From Melioribacter sp. (GTDB taxonomy: Bacteria; Bacteroidota; Ignavibacteria; Ignavibacteriales; Melioribacteraceae), in contig VEPI01000172.1 in assembly GCA_012026935.1 (NCBI GenBank), positions 51,986 through 86,883 of the forward strand: a stretch of DNA of 34,898 bases. The letters are read 5' to 3'. Under the pieces are notes generated by a model that saw only the letters and a program-made list of their open reading frames with translations, was not told the DNA's origin and did not search any database. A program made the translations under genes and the position numbers. This document shows, piece after piece, positions 2,858-25,616 of this stretch (positions are counted from its first letter, which is position 1; the number at the start of each line of letters is the position of its first letter).

Positions 2858-3577
2858 GTGTATAAAATAAGTTTACAAGATTTTGAAGGTCCGCTCGATC
2901 TGCTTCTCTTTTTCCTACGAAGAGATGAATTGGATATTTATGATATTCCGATCTCGCGTATAACTCACGAGTTTATGGATTATCTTCATCTTCTAGAACA
3001 ACTCGATCTTGAAGTTGCCGGCGATTTTATTTTGATGGCTGCAACTTTAATGCAGATTAAAGTTAGAATGCTGCTGCCGAGAGAAGTTGATGAGAAAGGT
3101 GAAGAGATTGATCCGCGCGCCGAATTAGTTAAAGCTCTTCTTGAGTACAAAAGATATAAAGAAATGTCGGAAGAACTTTCTTTTATGGAAGCCAACCAGA
3201 GAAAATATAATTACCGGGGAAATTTTAATGAGGATCCGAAAGAAACGACTACAGATTACGGTGTGCTTCTTAAGAACATCACCATATATGATTTGATTAA
3301 AGCATTTAAAAAAGTTTTACTTGAAAAACCGGCTGAACCGGTACATCAAATTAAAAAGTGGAACATAACAATTGACGAACAGATGGATTATATAACTGCA
3401 AAGCTGGGAGAAAAAAATCAAATTGATTTTCTAGATTTGATGATAGATCTGCGTGAAAAAATTAAAATTGTTGTTACTTTTATTGCGATTTTGGAAATGG
3501 TTAAAGCGGGGAAGATCGGTCTTCGTGCATCAAATAAACTAAACGATTTTATCATTTACGGATTGGCCAATGGATAA
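2858..3577 (+). CDS. scpA: Segregation and condensation protein ScpA
   Basis: ScpA is the kleisin subunit of the bacterial SMC-ScpAB condensin, bridging the SMC heads on chromosomal DNA. The family opening is obvious: FEGPLDLLL at residues 9-17, followed by the helical region with LMQIKVRMLLP that contacts the SMC neck. The C-terminal winged-helix region ends the 239-aa protein, close to the family's usual length of about 250. The GTG start at 2858 fits the conserved N-terminus; the ATG at 2856 is out of frame and hits a stop at once. Its end overlaps scpB by 8 bases, which suggests translational coupling. No smc gene is in the window. Confidence 0.95.
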   Translation: MYKISLQDFEGPLDLLLFFLRRDELDIYDIPISRITHEFMDYLHLLEQLDLEVAGDFILMAATLMQIKVRMLLPREVDEKGEEIDPRAELVKALLEYKRYKEMSEELSFMEANQRKYNYRGNFNEDPKETTTDYGVLLKNITIYDLIKAFKKVLLEKPAEPVHQIKKWNITIDEQMDYITAKLGEKNQIDFLDLMIDLREKIKIVVTFIAILEMVKAGKIGLRASNKLNDFIIYGLANG

Positions 3578-4262
3578 TATTTATAATTCGGTTATAGAAG
3601 CATTGATCTTTGCTTCGGATGATCCTTTAACTCCGGCAGAAATTATTAATGCTGTTAAAGAAATTGACGGACCGGATACTGAGATCACTGAAGATGATAT
3701 AGAAAAAACCGTTGATGAGTTAAATATAAAATATGATGAAAATGGAATTGCATTTACCATTTTGAAAATCGCTCACGGTTATATCCACGCAACAAAACCG
3801 GACCATGCAAAGTATGTGGGATATCTCTCAACGGAAAAAACAAAAAGGAGATTAAGCCCTGCTGCTTTAGAAACGCTTGCGATGATTGCATATAAACAAC
3901 CGCTAACAAAACCTGAATTGGAATCAATACGCGGAGTGAATTCGGATTATACTCTAAACACTTTGCTGGAAAAAAATCTTGTTACAATTGCCGGAAGAGC
4001 TGAAACTGTTGGCCGGCCGCTTCTCTATGTAACAACGGATGAATTTTTAAAATATTTTGGATTGAAGCAGATAAGTGATTTACCTAAACCCCGTGAGATA
4101 GAAGAGATCATGAAGGATGAAGATTTTCTTGAACAGAAACGCAGAATTATGATGAGCGGTGTTGAAGAGAAAGCTGAAGAAGAAGAATTGCAGTCTGAAC
4201 TTGAGCAGGACAACGAAATAGAATCAGAATTAGAAGAAGATAATGAAAATACGATTGAATAG
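3570..4262 (+). CDS. scpB: Segregation and condensation protein ScpB
   Basis: ScpB dimers bind ScpA and regulate the SMC condensin. The protein has two winged-helix domains; the second contains the conserved LSPAALETLAMIAYKQPLT stretch at about residues 95-113 and GRPLLYVTT near 148-156. The last 30 residues or so are strongly acidic (runs of E and D) and probably disordered, as in many ScpB proteins. Length is 230 aa. It overlaps scpA by 8 bases upstream and the pseudouridine synthase gene by 20 bases downstream. Confidence 0.95.
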   Translation: MDNIYNSVIEALIFASDDPLTPAEIINAVKEIDGPDTEITEDDIEKTVDELNIKYDENGIAFTILKIAHGYIHATKPDHAKYVGYLSTEKTKRRLSPAALETLAMIAYKQPLTKPELESIRGVNSDYTLNTLLEKNLVTIAGRAETVGRPLLYVTTDEFLKYFGLKQISDLPKPREIEEIMKDEDFLEQKRRIMMSGVEEKAEEEELQSELEQDNEIESELEEDNENTIE

Positions 4263-6480: not shown

Positions 6481-8010
6481 TTGGAACCATTAAATCAAGA
6501 TTTAGATTTTAATGCGCTCATTCAACGAAGACATGACGAATTGAGAGAACTGCTTGCTAAAGGAATTCAACCGTTTGCTTACAGTTTTGACGTTGATCAT
6601 TATTCTGATGATATCAAAAATAATTTTGAAAAATATGAGAACAAAGATGTAAAAATTGCCGGAAGAATTATGGCAATACGCAGAATGGGCAAAGCGTCTT
6701 TCGCGCACATTCAGGATAAAGACGGTAAGATCCAAATCTATTTAAAGAAAGATGATGTTGGAGATTCTTACGAAGTATTTAAACTGCTTGATATAGGCGA
6801 CATAGTTGGAGTTGAAGGATTTGTTTTTAAAACAAAGACAGGTGAGATCTCTGTTCATTCTAAATCATTTACTCTTTTGTCTAAATCAATGAGACCGATT
6901 CCAATTCCGAAAGAGACAACTGATGAAAGCGGAAATAAAGTTGTGCACGATCAATTTGCCGATAAAGAAATGCGTTACCGCCAACGCTATCTTGATCTGA
7001 TATTGAATCCTGAAATTAAGGTTGTTTTTAAAACTCGATCGAAGATCGTAACAGAGATAAGAAAATATTTGGATGAAAACGGATTAGTTGAGGTAGAAAC
7101 ACCGATTCTACAGCCGTTATACGGCGGAGCTACCGCCCGTCCATTTTCTACACATCACAATGCTCTTGATATAGACCTCTTCTTGCGAATTGCCGATGAA
7201 CTCTATTTGAAGCGCTTAATAGTAGGCGGATTTGACGGTGTTTATGAAATATCTAAAGATTTCCGTAATGAAGGGATGGATAAAACACATAATCCCGAAT
7301 TTACTATGCTTGAACTTTACGTTGCTTACAAAGATTATTTCTGGATGATGTCGTTTGTAGAAAATATGGTTGCGAATATTGCAAAGAATGTTTTTAACAC
7401 CACCGAGTTCAACATTGAAGGAAATAAGATTAATTTTAATCCGCCATGGAAAAGAATTTCTATGGTTGACGAACTAAAAGAGAAAGTTGGTATAGATGTT
7501 CTGTTGGCTTCAAACGAAGAGCTCATAAAATTACTGAAAACAAAAAATGTTGATATGGAAGGCGGGGAGAGTAAAGGTAAATTAATTGATCTACTTTTCG
7601 AAGTAACAATTCAACCAACATTAGTTCAACCGACTTTTGTTACTGATTACCCAGTTGAACTTTCACCGCTTGCGAAAAAACACAGATCAAGAAAAGGACT
7701 TGTTGAAAGATTTGAAGGATTTGTTTTAGGACGTGAAATTTGCAATGCGTTTAGCGAACTGAACGATCCGATAGATCAACGAAGTAGATTTGAAGATCAA
7801 GCAAAGATGAAAGAAGAAGGCGATGAAGAAGCTCATCAGATTGATGAAGATTTTGTACGCGCTCTTGAATATGCAATGCCGCCGACAGCGGGACTTGGAG
7901 TCGGGATTGACAGATTAATTATGCTGTTAACAAATCAACCGTCAATCCGCGATGTTATTCTATTTCCACAAATGCGTCCTCAAAAGAAAGGATATAATGA
8001 AAAAGATTAG
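6481..8010 (+). CDS. lysS: Lysine-tRNA ligase (class II)
   Basis: This cytosolic enzyme charges tRNA-Lys. An N-terminal OB-fold anticodon-binding domain covers about residues 55-140. Class II motif 2 is at 261-280 (FRNEGMDKTHNPEF) and motif 3 near 471-479 (GLGVGIDRL). At 509 aa it matches bacterial LysRS. The start is TTG, supported by GGAGGA at 6472-6477 and by the reading frame beginning just ahead of the conserved N-terminus. The 3' end overlaps the protease gene by 14 bases. Confidence 0.97.
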   Translation: MEPLNQDLDFNALIQRRHDELRELLAKGIQPFAYSFDVDHYSDDIKNNFEKYENKDVKIAGRIMAIRRMGKASFAHIQDKDGKIQIYLKKDDVGDSYEVFKLLDIGDIVGVEGFVFKTKTGEISVHSKSFTLLSKSMRPIPIPKETTDESGNKVVHDQFADKEMRYRQRYLDLILNPEIKVVFKTRSKIVTEIRKYLDENGLVEVETPILQPLYGGATARPFSTHHNALDIDLFLRIADELYLKRLIVGGFDGVYEISKDFRNEGMDKTHNPEFTMLELYVAYKDYFWMMSFVENMVANIAKNVFNTTEFNIEGNKINFNPPWKRISMVDELKEKVGIDVLLASNEELIKLLKTKNVDMEGGESKGKLIDLLFEVTIQPTLVQPTFVTDYPVELSPLAKKHRSRKGLVERFEGFVLGREICNAFSELNDPIDQRSRFEDQAKMKEEGDEEAHQIDEDFVRALEYAMPPTAGLGVGIDRLIMLLTNQPSIRDVILFPQMRPQKKGYNEKD

Positions 8011-17398: not shown

Positions 17399-18241
17399 TT
17401 GTTTCATATAGATTCTAAATACCCACAAAATTCTGTTTTATTAACTGATGATAACCAGCAAAATTCTTTTCATAATTCTCTCATTGAATCAATAGTAATT
17501 AATAATATTTACAATAAACATATAAATGTAAGCTCGTGCTTTACATGTGGTGTATGTTATAATGAAAAATTTGTAATTGATTATAGAAAAATAGTAGAAG
17601 TTTCTTGTAATGGATTACTCAATAATGGATTTGTCGAAATACCATCTAATGTAGAAATAAATATCTTTCCTGAAGACTTTATAATTGTTCAAAATAATGA
17701 TTCGCTTGAGATTGCACAGGTGAAACTAATTGGCGAAATGGTAAAACTTAAAAGACATTATCTTGGATTATATGAAGATTTTTTACCAATCTTGATTAGA
17801 AAAGCATCAGTGGAGGATCTCGAGAGAGTTAGAAAAAATATTCAAGATGAAGAACGGGCTGGTCCATTCTTTCGTAGATCAATAGAGAAATTTAATTTGA
17901 ATATGAAATTAGTTAGTATCCATTACCAATTTGACCGTAAGAAACTCTTTTTCTTTTATACTTCGGATGGAAGAGTTGATTTTAGAGAATTAGCAAAGGA
18001 ATTAGCCTCTGAATTCAAAACAAGAATTGAATTAAGGCAGATTGGTGTACGAGATGAGGCAAAAAAAGTGGGCGGGGTAGGTACATGTGGTAGAGAATAT
18101 TGCTGTATTTCTTTTTTATCTAGTTTTAAGAGGATATCTACACAGTTAGCCAATGAACAAAATCTCCTTTCAAGCATGGGAAAATTGAGCGGTCCATGTG
18201 GCAAATTAAAATGTTGTCTTTCATTTGAGGTAGAGTCATAG
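17399..18241 (+). CDS. ricT: PSP1 domain protein (RicT/YaaT-like)
   Basis: The C-terminal PSP1 domain (about residues 120-275) ends with the conserved cysteine clusters C230, C235-C236, C267 and C272-C273 (GTCGREYCC; GPCGKLKCC). In Bacillus, RicT joins RicA and RicF in an Fe-S-bearing complex that affects RNase Y processing. The N-terminus adds C47, C50 and C53, a possible extra metal site. The start is TTG, supported by AGGA 8 bases upstream and by the 3-base spacing from holB. No ricA or ricF partner is in the window, so the complex is inference. Confidence 0.88.
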   Translation: MFHIDSKYPQNSVLLTDDNQQNSFHNSLIESIVINNIYNKHINVSSCFTCGVCYNEKFVIDYRKIVEVSCNGLLNNGFVEIPSNVEINIFPEDFIIVQNNDSLEIAQVKLIGEMVKLKRHYLGLYEDFLPILIRKASVEDLERVRKNIQDEERAGPFFRRSIEKFNLNMKLVSIHYQFDRKKLFFFYTSDGRVDFRELAKELASEFKTRIELRQIGVRDEAKKVGGVGTCGREYCCISFLSSFKRISTQLANEQNLLSSMGKLSGPCGKLKCCLSFEVES

Positions 18242-18289: not shown

Positions 18290-19141
18290 ATGAGTTTGAT
18301 CAATAAAATTGCGATCATTGGAGCAGGCACTATGGGTAGTGGTATTGCCCATGTTTTTTCACAATATGGGTTTTAGATATTTTTGATTGATGCGGAGCAA
18401 ATTTATGTTGATAAGGGACTAAGTTCTATAAACAATAATATGGATAGGCAAGTTAAAAAAGGCTTAATAACTGCTGAAGATAAAAACAACTTTCTAAATA
18501 ATATTGTTCCCTTAGTCGGACATAAAAATATTGATCAAGATACAGATCTTATCATCGAGGCAATATATGAGAATAAACATGCTAAATTATCTTTATTAAA
18601 AGATCTAAACAATATACTTAATCCTGATTGTATTATTACATCGAATACATCTTCAATCTCTATAACTGAATTAGGAAAAAATATCCGCAGTGACAAATTC
18701 TTAGGCATGCATTTTATGAACCCAGTTCCTGTTATGCAATTAGTAGAACTAATAAGAGGATATTCTACTTCTGATGAAACTTTTAAAACTATATATGAGT
18801 TAGCAATAAAAATCGGGAAAAAGCCAGTAGAAGTATTTGATTATCCTGGTTTTATATCTAACAGAATCTTAATGCCTATGATAAACGAGGCTATATTTGC
18901 TTTGTATGAAGGTGTGGCTAAAGCTGAAGATATAGATAATGTAATGAAATTGGGAATGAATCACCCGATGGGTCCCTTGACCTTGGCTGATTTTATTGGT
19001 CTGGATGTTTGTTTAGATATTATGGAAGTATTATACGAAGGATTTCAAGATTCAAAATATAGGCCTTGTCCATTACTTAAAAAGATGGTAAATGCAGGGA
19101 GATTAGGCAGGAAGACAAAAAAGGGTTTTTTTGAGTATTAG
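18290..19141 (+). pseudogene. 3-hydroxyacyl-CoA dehydrogenase, interrupted by an in-frame amber codon
   Basis: The product would oxidise 3-hydroxyacyl-CoA with NAD, as in fatty-acid oxidation or butanoate metabolism. Reading from the ATG at 18290 (with AAGGTAAAG upstream) gives the Rossmann motif GAGTMGSG at 11-18, then TAG at 18374-18376 (codon 29), then the rest in the same frame: SNTSS, GMHFMNPVPVM and a C-terminal domain ending KKGFFEY. Total would be 283 aa, a normal length. A TTG at 18383 could restart translation but would lose the NAD-binding glycines. Everything after the stop looks intact, so the mutation is recent, a sequencing error, or suppressed. TAG ends other genes here, so the code is not generally reassigned. 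Confidence 0.8.
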
Positions 19142-19179: not shown

Positions 19180-20112
19180 TTAATTTAAAAAAGCATCAAT
19201 AAATAAGGTTGCATTAAATTCTTCAATATCGTCGATTGTCTCACCTACCCCTATATATTTAATTGGTAGTCTGTTCCTTAAACTTAGCTGCAAGATTGCA
19301 CCACCTTTAGCTGTACCATCCAACTTGGTTAGTATCATACCTGTAATTTTTGAACTCTTATTAAATGAATCAACTTGGGAGTTAACATTCTGGCCTGAAT
19401 TAGAATCGAGGACTAATAAAATCTCGTTGGGAGCATAATGTAATAATCTATTAGTAACTTTTAAAATTTTTGATAGTTCCTGCATTAGGTCCGAATTATT
19501 GTGAAGTCGTCCCGCAGTATCAATTAAAACAATGTCATAGCTGTTAACTATTGCAATATTTAATGTATCAAACACAACTGAAGAAGGATCATTTGAATTA
19601 ACTTCAACAAGTTCAACACCAATTCGATTGGACCATGTTTTAAGTTGATCATTAGCAGCTGCACGGAAAGTATCAGCAGAAGCAATAATTACCTTCTTCC
19701 CTTCTAATTTATATTTATAGGCAAGTTTTGCTAGTGTTGTTGTTTTACCAGACCCATTAACACCAACAATCATTATTACATACGGTCTAAATTTTTCAAT
19801 TTCTGAGTGATTATTAGAATTTAATTCTTTATGAAAAATATTAAGTAGTTCTTCACGCATTATTTTTTTTATATTTTCTAGAGACCTATCATTAGTGTTT
19901 AATAGCGAAGTTCGGGTCTTATTAATTATTTTCTCGGTGAGTTCACTCCCTAGATCACTACTAAGTAAAATTGCTTCTAATTCGTTAAATGTTTCGTCAT
20001 CTAAAATAACTTTTCGTGATATTACTTCTGTAATTCTATTGAAAAGGTTATTGCGAGTTTTCGATAATCCTACTTTTAATTTATCAATTGTTAATTTTTG
20101 TAATATTTTCAT
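19180..20112 (-). CDS. ftsY: Signal recognition particle receptor FtsY
   Basis: FtsY is the membrane-associated GTPase that docks SRP-ribosome complexes at the translocon. The N domain (about 1-95) precedes the G domain with GVNGSGKT at 117-124, DTAGRL, and TKLDGTAKGG near the C-terminus. At 310 aa it lacks the long acidic A domain of E. coli FtsY, as do many bacterial FtsY proteins. The start overlaps the end of pgsA by 29 bases, so the two are translationally linked. It converges on the dehydrogenase gene with only 38 bases between. Confidence 0.96.
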   Translation of the reverse strand: MKILQKLTIDKLKVGLSKTRNNLFNRITEVISRKVILDDETFNELEAILLSSDLGSELTEKIINKTRTSLLNTNDRSLENIKKIMREELLNIFHKELNSNNHSEIEKFRPYVIMIVGVNGSGKTTTLAKLAYKYKLEGKKVIIASADTFRAAANDQLKTWSNRIGVELVEVNSNDPSSVVFDTLNIAIVNSYDIVLIDTAGRLHNNSDLMQELSKILKVTNRLLHYAPNEILLVLDSNSGQNVNSQVDSFNKSSKITGMILTKLDGTAKGGAILQLSLRNRLPIKYIGVGETIDDIEEFNATLFIDAFLN

Positions 20113-23999: not shown

Positions 24000-24956
24000 A
24001 TGACTATTGCTTCTATTGATATCGGCTCAAATACGGTATTACTACTTATTGCAGAATACAATACACAAGGAAAAAATATTAAACCTCTAGCCAACTATTA
24101 TGAATCGCCTCGTATTAGTGAAGGCTTAAAGATTGGTGATAAACTTAGTAAATCTAAGATTGATCTTTTAATAACTGTTTTAAGTCTTTATAAAGAGCAA
24201 ATTATAAGATTTAATTGTGATAAAGTACTAATCACAGCTACAAATACCTTTAGAATAATTTCGAATAGTGATGAAGTCATTTATGAAATTGAAAAATTGT
24301 TTGATTGGAAAATCAAAATAGTATCGGGTGATGAAGAAGCACGTTTAACATTTCTTGGCTCTATCTTCCCTTTTCAAATTAATTCATTGAATAATGTCAT
24401 TGATATCGGAGGCGGCAGCACCGAATTTGTTCATGGAAACCATTCTTCCATACTTTTTAAGAAGAGTTTTAACATTGGAGTTGTATCACTGACTGAGAAA
24501 TATTTTAGTAGTTACCCGCCTAAAGAGAATGAAAGAATAAATGCCGTGGAATATTCTAAAAAGATATTTTCCGAATTACTTGGAAATTATTCCGGAAACT
24601 TTGATACCATTGCTGTAGCTGGTACACCTACAACATTATCTTGCATTAAACAAAACATTCGAACCTATGATGAAAGCAGAGTTGAGAATTTTATTTTACA
24701 ATTAAGCGATATTGAACTTATTATAAGTGAACTAGTTAAACTGAATAAATATCAAGTGTTGGAAAGATTTGGTGAAGTTGTTAGAGGTAGAGAAGATGTT
24801 CTATTAGCCGGTTGTTTAATTTTAGTATCGCTAATGAAGCAGATAAATATTAATCAAGTTAGAGTAAGTACGAAAGGATTAAGATATGGAGTTGTTGTTG
24901 ATTACTTAATTAAAAATAACTTACTAAATCCCGAAATAGATTATACCTATAATTAA
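24000..24956 (+). CDS. Ppx/GppA-family phosphatase
   Basis: This protein belongs to the exopolyphosphatase / pppGpp phosphohydrolase family, part of the ASKHA fold. Phosphate loop 1 is IDIGSNTVLLLIAE (about 6-19) and loop 2 is VIDIGGGSTEF (about 137-147). At 318 aa it is the short form without the C-terminal HD domain, so polyphosphate versus pppGpp specificity cannot be assigned. It is the only plus-strand gene in this part. Its last 33 bases overlap, on the opposite strand, the end of the zinc-ribbon/Yip1 gene. Confidence 0.9.
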   Translation: MTIASIDIGSNTVLLLIAEYNTQGKNIKPLANYYESPRISEGLKIGDKLSKSKIDLLITVLSLYKEQIIRFNCDKVLITATNTFRIISNSDEVIYEIEKLFDWKIKIVSGDEEARLTFLGSIFPFQINSLNNVIDIGGGSTEFVHGNHSSILFKKSFNIGVVSLTEKYFSSYPPKENERINAVEYSKKIFSELLGNYSGNFDTIAVAGTPTTLSCIKQNIRTYDESRVENFILQLSDIELIISELVKLNKYQVLERFGEVVRGREDVLLAGCLILVSLMKQININQVRVSTKGLRYGVVVDYLIKNNLLNPEIDYTYN

Positions 24957-25616
24957 CATCGTTAATATAACCCCTGTACAAGTAGAATAAATTTTATTTC
25001 TTGTTTGTGAATATGTAGCCGCTATGAAAAGAATACTGCTCCATAAGAAAAGTAATCCCTCAATTATTAGAAGAATCAATGAAGGTGTGGGTTTCATTAG
25101 TAACGGAGATGGATTAAAAGTAAACCAATATTCACCGAATAATGCAAATTGTATTGGTATTAAAACCACTAATCCGCCTATCATTGGAATAAAACTAAAA
25201 ATATAGATTGCAAAATTATCCTTAAACCTATTTTCGATTCCAAAGAATTTATTAGAGTAAGTAACTATCAAAGAAAAAAACGAAAGTAATATAATAGACG
25301 GCACTCCGCCCAATAGAAACGAATTAAAAAAAGTAATTGATACCCCGTTGGAATTATAGAACGCATTATGAATTATCATTGCTGCCAAAGATAATTTTAC
25401 ACAAACTAAAATCATCAAAGTCACAACAAAATTTTTATTTTCTGCTTGAATAATTCTATTAAAAGCTTGTATCGGTGTTTCTATTAGTTTACTTATGGTT
25501 TCCCATAAATCAATATTTGGTATTTTAGATCTAAGAAATGAATTGCAGTTCGAACAAATCATCGAATAAAATGGATTTTCTTTTTTACAATTATTGCAGA
25601 CTAAAACATTTTTCAT
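24924..25616 (-). CDS. Zinc-ribbon and Yip1-type membrane protein
   Basis: The N-terminus has a small zinc ribbon, C7-x2-C10-x10-C21-x2-C24. After a linker rich in polar residues come about five hydrophobic helices (from about residue 63 to the end), arranged like the Yip1 domain, with AFNRIIQ before the first helix. Length is 230 aa. Role unknown; such proteins are common in Bacteroidota-related genomes. It starts 10 bases after the DUF5683 gene and may be its operon partner. Confidence 0.78.
   Translation of the reverse strand: MKNVLVCNNCKKENPFYSMICSNCNSFLRSKIPNIDLWETISKLIETPIQAFNRIIQAENKNFVVTLMILVCVKLSLAAMIIHNAFYNSNGVSITFFNSFLLGGVPSIILLSFFSLIVTYSNKFFGIENRFKDNFAIYIFSFIPMIGGLVVLIPIQFALFGEYWFTFNPSPLLMKPTPSLILLIIEGLLFLWSSILFIAATYSQTRNKIYSTCTGVILTMLIIGIIYFGI

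Follow-up and report, generated by a model that had tools for sequence, protein, structure and literature searches.

The analysed stretch of DNA (the window, 34,898 nucleotides, positions 51986-86883 of contig 118, C118, in the source genome G000) carries a 3-hydroxybutyryl-CoA dehydrogenase gene whose reading frame is interrupted by a single TAG (Table 1). The frame is open on both sides of codon 29, no other internal stop is present, and the gene ends with a terminal TAG at 19139-19141. The initial annotation had described one in-frame amber codon, flanked on both sides by the same frame, in an otherwise intact 283-aa dehydrogenase, and this description was confirmed on the sequence. Read through with X at the stop, the 283-residue protein matched the NCBIfam model PRK05808 from residue 4 to residue 283 with 413.3 bits (cut-off 408), as well as the two Pfam domains 3HCDH_N and 3HCDH; the PRK05808 score is reached over the full length, but in a frame broken by the TAG at codon 29. 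The NAD glycines had been placed before the stop and the catalytic and C-terminal regions after it, and this arrangement also held: the NAD motif, GAGTMG (residue 11), precedes the stop, while SNTSS (118), MHFMNP (140), VELIRG (152), and SNRI (190), presumably the catalytic motifs of the dehydrogenase, all follow it. The best solved relatives of the protein are 3-hydroxybutyryl-CoA dehydrogenases, such as PDB 6aa8 and 4kug. Compared with these PRK05808/NF004474 enzymes, the G000 protein displays the same full-length match above the cut-off and both Pfam domains, but it differs in the stop at codon 29, which occurs in none of the 78 related copies.

Orthologues of ricT and ftsY also flank the dehydrogenase gene in G004 and G007, the two nearest, congeneric genomes used for comparison. 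The genus of the source comprises 12 genomes, its own included, of which nine gave a match, and the nearest other genome shows 84% DNA identity. The source draft amounts to 3.18 Mb in 176 contigs, with a completeness of 99.95 and a contamination of 0.11.

Table 1. Features of the dehydrogenase locus and further TAG-terminated genes in the window
Feature	Position	Strand	Remarks
hbd/paaH-type 3-hydroxybutyryl-CoA dehydrogenase gene, 283 codons read through	18290..19141	+	PRK05808, Pfam, intact orthologues
In-frame TAG, codon 29, 3' of the NAD-binding glycine motif, at a variable position	18374..18376	+	Sense codon in 78/78 related copies
Open frame 3' of the stop, 252 aa, starting with TTG, without GAGTMG	18383..19141	+	
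ricT/yaaT (PSP1), upstream neighbour	17399..18241	+	Ends with TAG
ftsY, convergent downstream neighbour	19180..20112	-	TIGR00064, 322.3 bits
scpB	3570-4262		Ends with TAG
lysS	6481-8010		Ends with TAG
Yip1-like gene	24924-25616		Ends with TAG; 28.3 bits, just below the cut-off of 28.6

The gene and its codon 29 among relatives

Intact orthologues of equal length are present in G004 (87% identity) and G007 (84%), and since this homology crosses the stop, the dehydrogenase frame is not a product of chance. The comparison with the closest genomes that the initial annotation had proposed yielded a sense codon at position 29, encoding lysine in both. The wider set of 78 related copies (32-87% identity; 29 loci from relative genomes and 49 from a second homology search) carries 11 different residues at this position, which ranks 21st of 283 by number of residues, ties counted. 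For the sequence beyond the stop, the best match with a name was an Ignavibacteria MAG (67%), in a search that may omit the same or very near genomes.

A copy at an identity of at least 60% was found in 46 of the 57 genomes, the source included: 44 of these copies are stop-free, that of G000 contains the TAG, and that of G047 is frame-broken. No copy at this level was found in 11 of the 56 relatives, six of which are at least 90% complete. The G047 orthologue, located on a 3.86-Mb contig (C1:3342000-3350000, at about 3430-3450 there), exhibits one frame change near residue 247, which could be real or a sequencing error. The second intact paralogue that had been suggested as a further check does exist in G000 (C60, 311 aa) and is indeed intact, but as a close counterpart it fell short, sharing only 41% identity with the interrupted dehydrogenase and scoring 332 bits against PRK05808, below the cut-off of 408 (a 279-aa piece was scanned). 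Full-length matches of this kind (39-45%) are present in 52 of the 57 genomes. Because the dehydrogenase gene is absent from 11 relatives, frameshifted in G047, and accompanied in G000 by an intact paralogue, it looks dispensable in the group, with gaps in draft assemblies possibly explaining part of the absences.

Constraint on the gene and age of the stop

The G000 dehydrogenase retained all 36 columns that are invariant across the 78 copies and 103 of the 104 that are invariant across the 30 closest, for which leave-one-out controls retained 104/104, 104/106, and 104/104. Among the columns conserved in at least 95% of copies, it kept 73 of 74 in the full set of 78 and 123 of 126 in the 30 closest. 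Residue 117 is T in the G000 dehydrogenase and A in 75 of the 78 copies.

Substitutions were assigned to branches using the ORFs of G004 as the reference, which renders any stops of G004 itself invisible; 76 ORFs were retained by filtering, of which 66 had a match in the contig and 55 a further one in G007. Two weak matches (29.7% and 44.8%) are among the 66, and a 60% identity limit left 64 orthologues; the branch sums cover the 55 genes that were matched in G007 as well, counting the one at 44.8%. The counts were restricted to codons shared by two of the three genomes, which places codon 29 outside the counts, as G000, G004, and G007 all differ there. On the G000 branch, the dehydrogenase accumulated 6 N and 36 S changes, compared with 427 and 1834 for the other 54 genes there (P 0.55). 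Its counts for the G004 and G007 branches, 11 : 25 and 17 : 44, did not differ significantly from those on the G000 branch (P 0.10 and 0.15, respectively), and its pairwise dN/dS with G004 was 0.08. With a neutral N:S opportunity of 3.25, a branch free of constraint for a tenth of its length would be expected to gain 11.7 N changes in that tenth alone (P(N<=6) = 0.055), and one free of constraint for 0.15 of its length would gain 17.5 in the unconstrained stretch (P = 0.001), a dating that is rough given a dS to G004 of about 0.9. On these counts, the stop would be recent, going back over no more than roughly a tenth of the branch that leads from the split with the nearest species, or else it would be not real or not disabling.

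The lack of decay in the rest of the gene leads to the same point, namely that the stop is either recent or a consensus error. An older decaying pseudogene was ruled out by the branch counts and the retained invariant columns, and the ordinary decayed pseudogene that the initial annotation had offered as an alternative fell away with it, as there is neither a second lesion nor relaxed constraint. Premature stop codons form one class of bacterial pseudogene lesion, according to the review PMC11078800. Set against the intact orthologues, the G000 gene carries a lesion that is presumably disabling, and neither a relaxation of constraint nor additional decay was seen in it, as would also be the case for a pseudogene of very recent origin.

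Stop usage, release factor, and tRNAs

TAG is in regular use as a stop in this genome. It terminates 5 of the 36 window ORFs (the 42 listed minus two end-open duplicates and four short overlapping ORFs) and 10 of the 64 orthologues on the contig, the dehydrogenase included, and 8 of these 10 also end with TAG in G004. The genes that had been named as TAG-terminated, scpB, lysS, the Yip1 gene, and the dehydrogenase, were all found to be so, as was ricT. In lysS, the TAG sits seven codons past the TAA of the G004 orthologue, constituting a small C-terminal extension. No further in-frame TAG was detected in the aligned parts of the 66 contig genes matched by G004, and prfA, encoding RF1, is intact (520.7 bits against a cut-off of 423.25).

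The proposed search for a tRNA with a CTA anticodon came back empty: none of the 40 tRNA genes, all of which were read by ARAGORN, carries it, in an inventory that was drawn from 150 scored candidates out of 217 and lacks Asp and Cys tRNAs. A CTA-tRNA-like pattern produced 28 matches, compared with 53 for a reversed control, and no such tRNA was present in the 27 loci read. An Asp tRNA pattern search of the G000 assembly gave 0 matches. PylS had no match at all in G000, in a search that reached E <= 0.001 in 13 of 14 control genomes and exceeded the cut-off in only one of them. Five or more tRNA genes are situated no further than about 20 bases from the end of a contig (C84, C92, C105, C144, and C148), and assembly breaks may fall at tRNA genes; a suppressor tRNA residing in the unassembled part of the genome is unlikely.

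Reassignment of TAG to sense in the G000 genome would have nothing in its favour beyond the single codon 29, and the ten TAG-terminated orthologues, the lack of a second in-frame TAG in 66 genes, the presence of RF1, and the failure to find a CTA tRNA among 40 tRNA genes render it exceedingly improbable. Genome-wide TAG recoding, against which the initial annotation had already argued, was ruled out by stop usage, the other genes, RF1, the tRNAs, and PylS. The G000 dehydrogenase is an ordinary case, with one nonsense allele and no sign of a changed code, and it illustrates, as a checked negative, that a conserved gene may contain a lone in-frame TAG without any recoding.

The only other in-frame stop among the 66 contig genes is a TAA in cvpA (Colicin V production family), located outside the window at C118:40375-40377 and corresponding to codon 163 of 183. 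The gene continues to 183 codons in G004 and 184 in G007. Because the TAA follows the Pfam domain, which in G004 ends at residue 144, cvpA would lose only its last 21 residues; the change, if real, is probably a harmless shortening. Stops in two more alignments based on G007 fall upstream of the corresponding G004 genes, and the remaining apparent stops, presumably due to out-of-frame ORFs that overlap longer ones, disappeared for G004 after removal of overlapping ORFs.

Origin and probable consequence of the stop

The options that had been listed for codon 29, namely recent mutation, base-call error, and amber suppression, proved to be the right set. In the reading that we favour, with a probability of about 0.63, a single-base change has recently created a nonsense codon in a 3-hydroxybutyryl-CoA dehydrogenase gene that this Ignavibacteria-like bacterium can do without. 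If the base is correct, codon 29 is a nonsense codon of recent origin. Translation from 18290 would end after 28 residues, leaving the NAD-binding dinucleotide fold incomplete, and any downstream restart would lack the dinucleotide-binding glycines, with a complete or almost complete loss of the enzyme as the predicted result. The allele is presumably null, and its tolerance may be attributed to redundancy or niche.

The alternative to be taken most seriously is a base-call, consensus, or strain-mixture error in the draft, with the gene of the organism itself intact, which we regard as possible though rather unlikely. The draft consists of 176 contigs, the lesion is a lone substitution with no other decay, and 44 of the 45 relatives holding the gene exhibit neither a stop nor a frame change; the in-frame stop in cvpA could be an error too, and continued constraint on the gene would be equally expected under an error or a suppressor. 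However, the completeness and contamination values of the assembly speak against an error, and the G000 branch displays no excess of amino-acid change (N/S 0.233, compared with 0.213 for G004 and 0.497 for G007). Furthermore, with the exception of one weak match (29.7%), every G004 ORF that has a match in the contig aligns in a single frame across 90% or more of its length. Stop-creating substitution errors are rare in short-read consensus, a general point that would apply here if the data are short-read. A recent mutation is favoured over an error because there is no general excess of amino-acid change and no evident frameshift in the contig. In our judgement, a pair of nonsense changes of which one does almost no harm fits real mutations, with the cvpA stop likewise taken from the consensus.

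Partial reading of the amber codon, through a suppressor tRNA or leaky termination, would yield some full-length enzyme and would account for the persistence of constraint along the full length of the gene; with 11 residues observed at position 29, insertion of nearly any amino acid might be acceptable there, and the tRNA inventory, with its missing Asp and Cys tRNAs and its unscored candidates, is incomplete. Against this stand the 40 tRNA genes devoid of a CTA anticodon, the empty CTA-like loci, the failure to find PylS, the intact RF1, and a stop common to none of the 78 related copies, and strong suppression would lengthen many proteins, given that 10 of 64 orthologues end with TAG. We consider such readthrough improbable, and its milder form, in which readthrough at a low level, or a weak suppressor tRNA that the assembly lacks, maintains a still-constrained enzyme at a reduced level, slightly more so. 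A shortened functional protein initiated at the TTG at 18383 or further in is highly improbable. The 252-aa frame is open from this TTG, but its product would lack the GAGTMG motif. In all 78 related copies, the matches start at residue 1 to 6, which makes the pre-stop part universal there, and its conservation matches that of the remainder (dN to G004 of 0.015 before the stop and 0.079 after it).

Young bacterial pseudogenes with a single nonsense lesion are a known kind, and a recent nonsense mutation in the G000 gene would resemble them in having one in-frame stop, no other decay, and a gene that is missing elsewhere in the group; no difference from them was seen, with the G000 base known from the assembly consensus only. 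A literature search found no paper on Ignavibacteri- that concerns a pseudogene with a premature stop codon. Feng et al. 2022 reportedly described "pseudo-pseudogenes" as bacterial pseudogenes with low protein expression. By comparison with these, a lone interruption at a tolerant position, considered here from the genes alone, could yield some full-length protein. If the nonsense mutation is real, it would represent a very recent loss step in a gene of the fatty-acid or butyryl-CoA pathway. G000 also encodes three proteins of ECH_1, the enoyl-CoA hydratase family, together with a thiolase, and all of these genes are stop-free.
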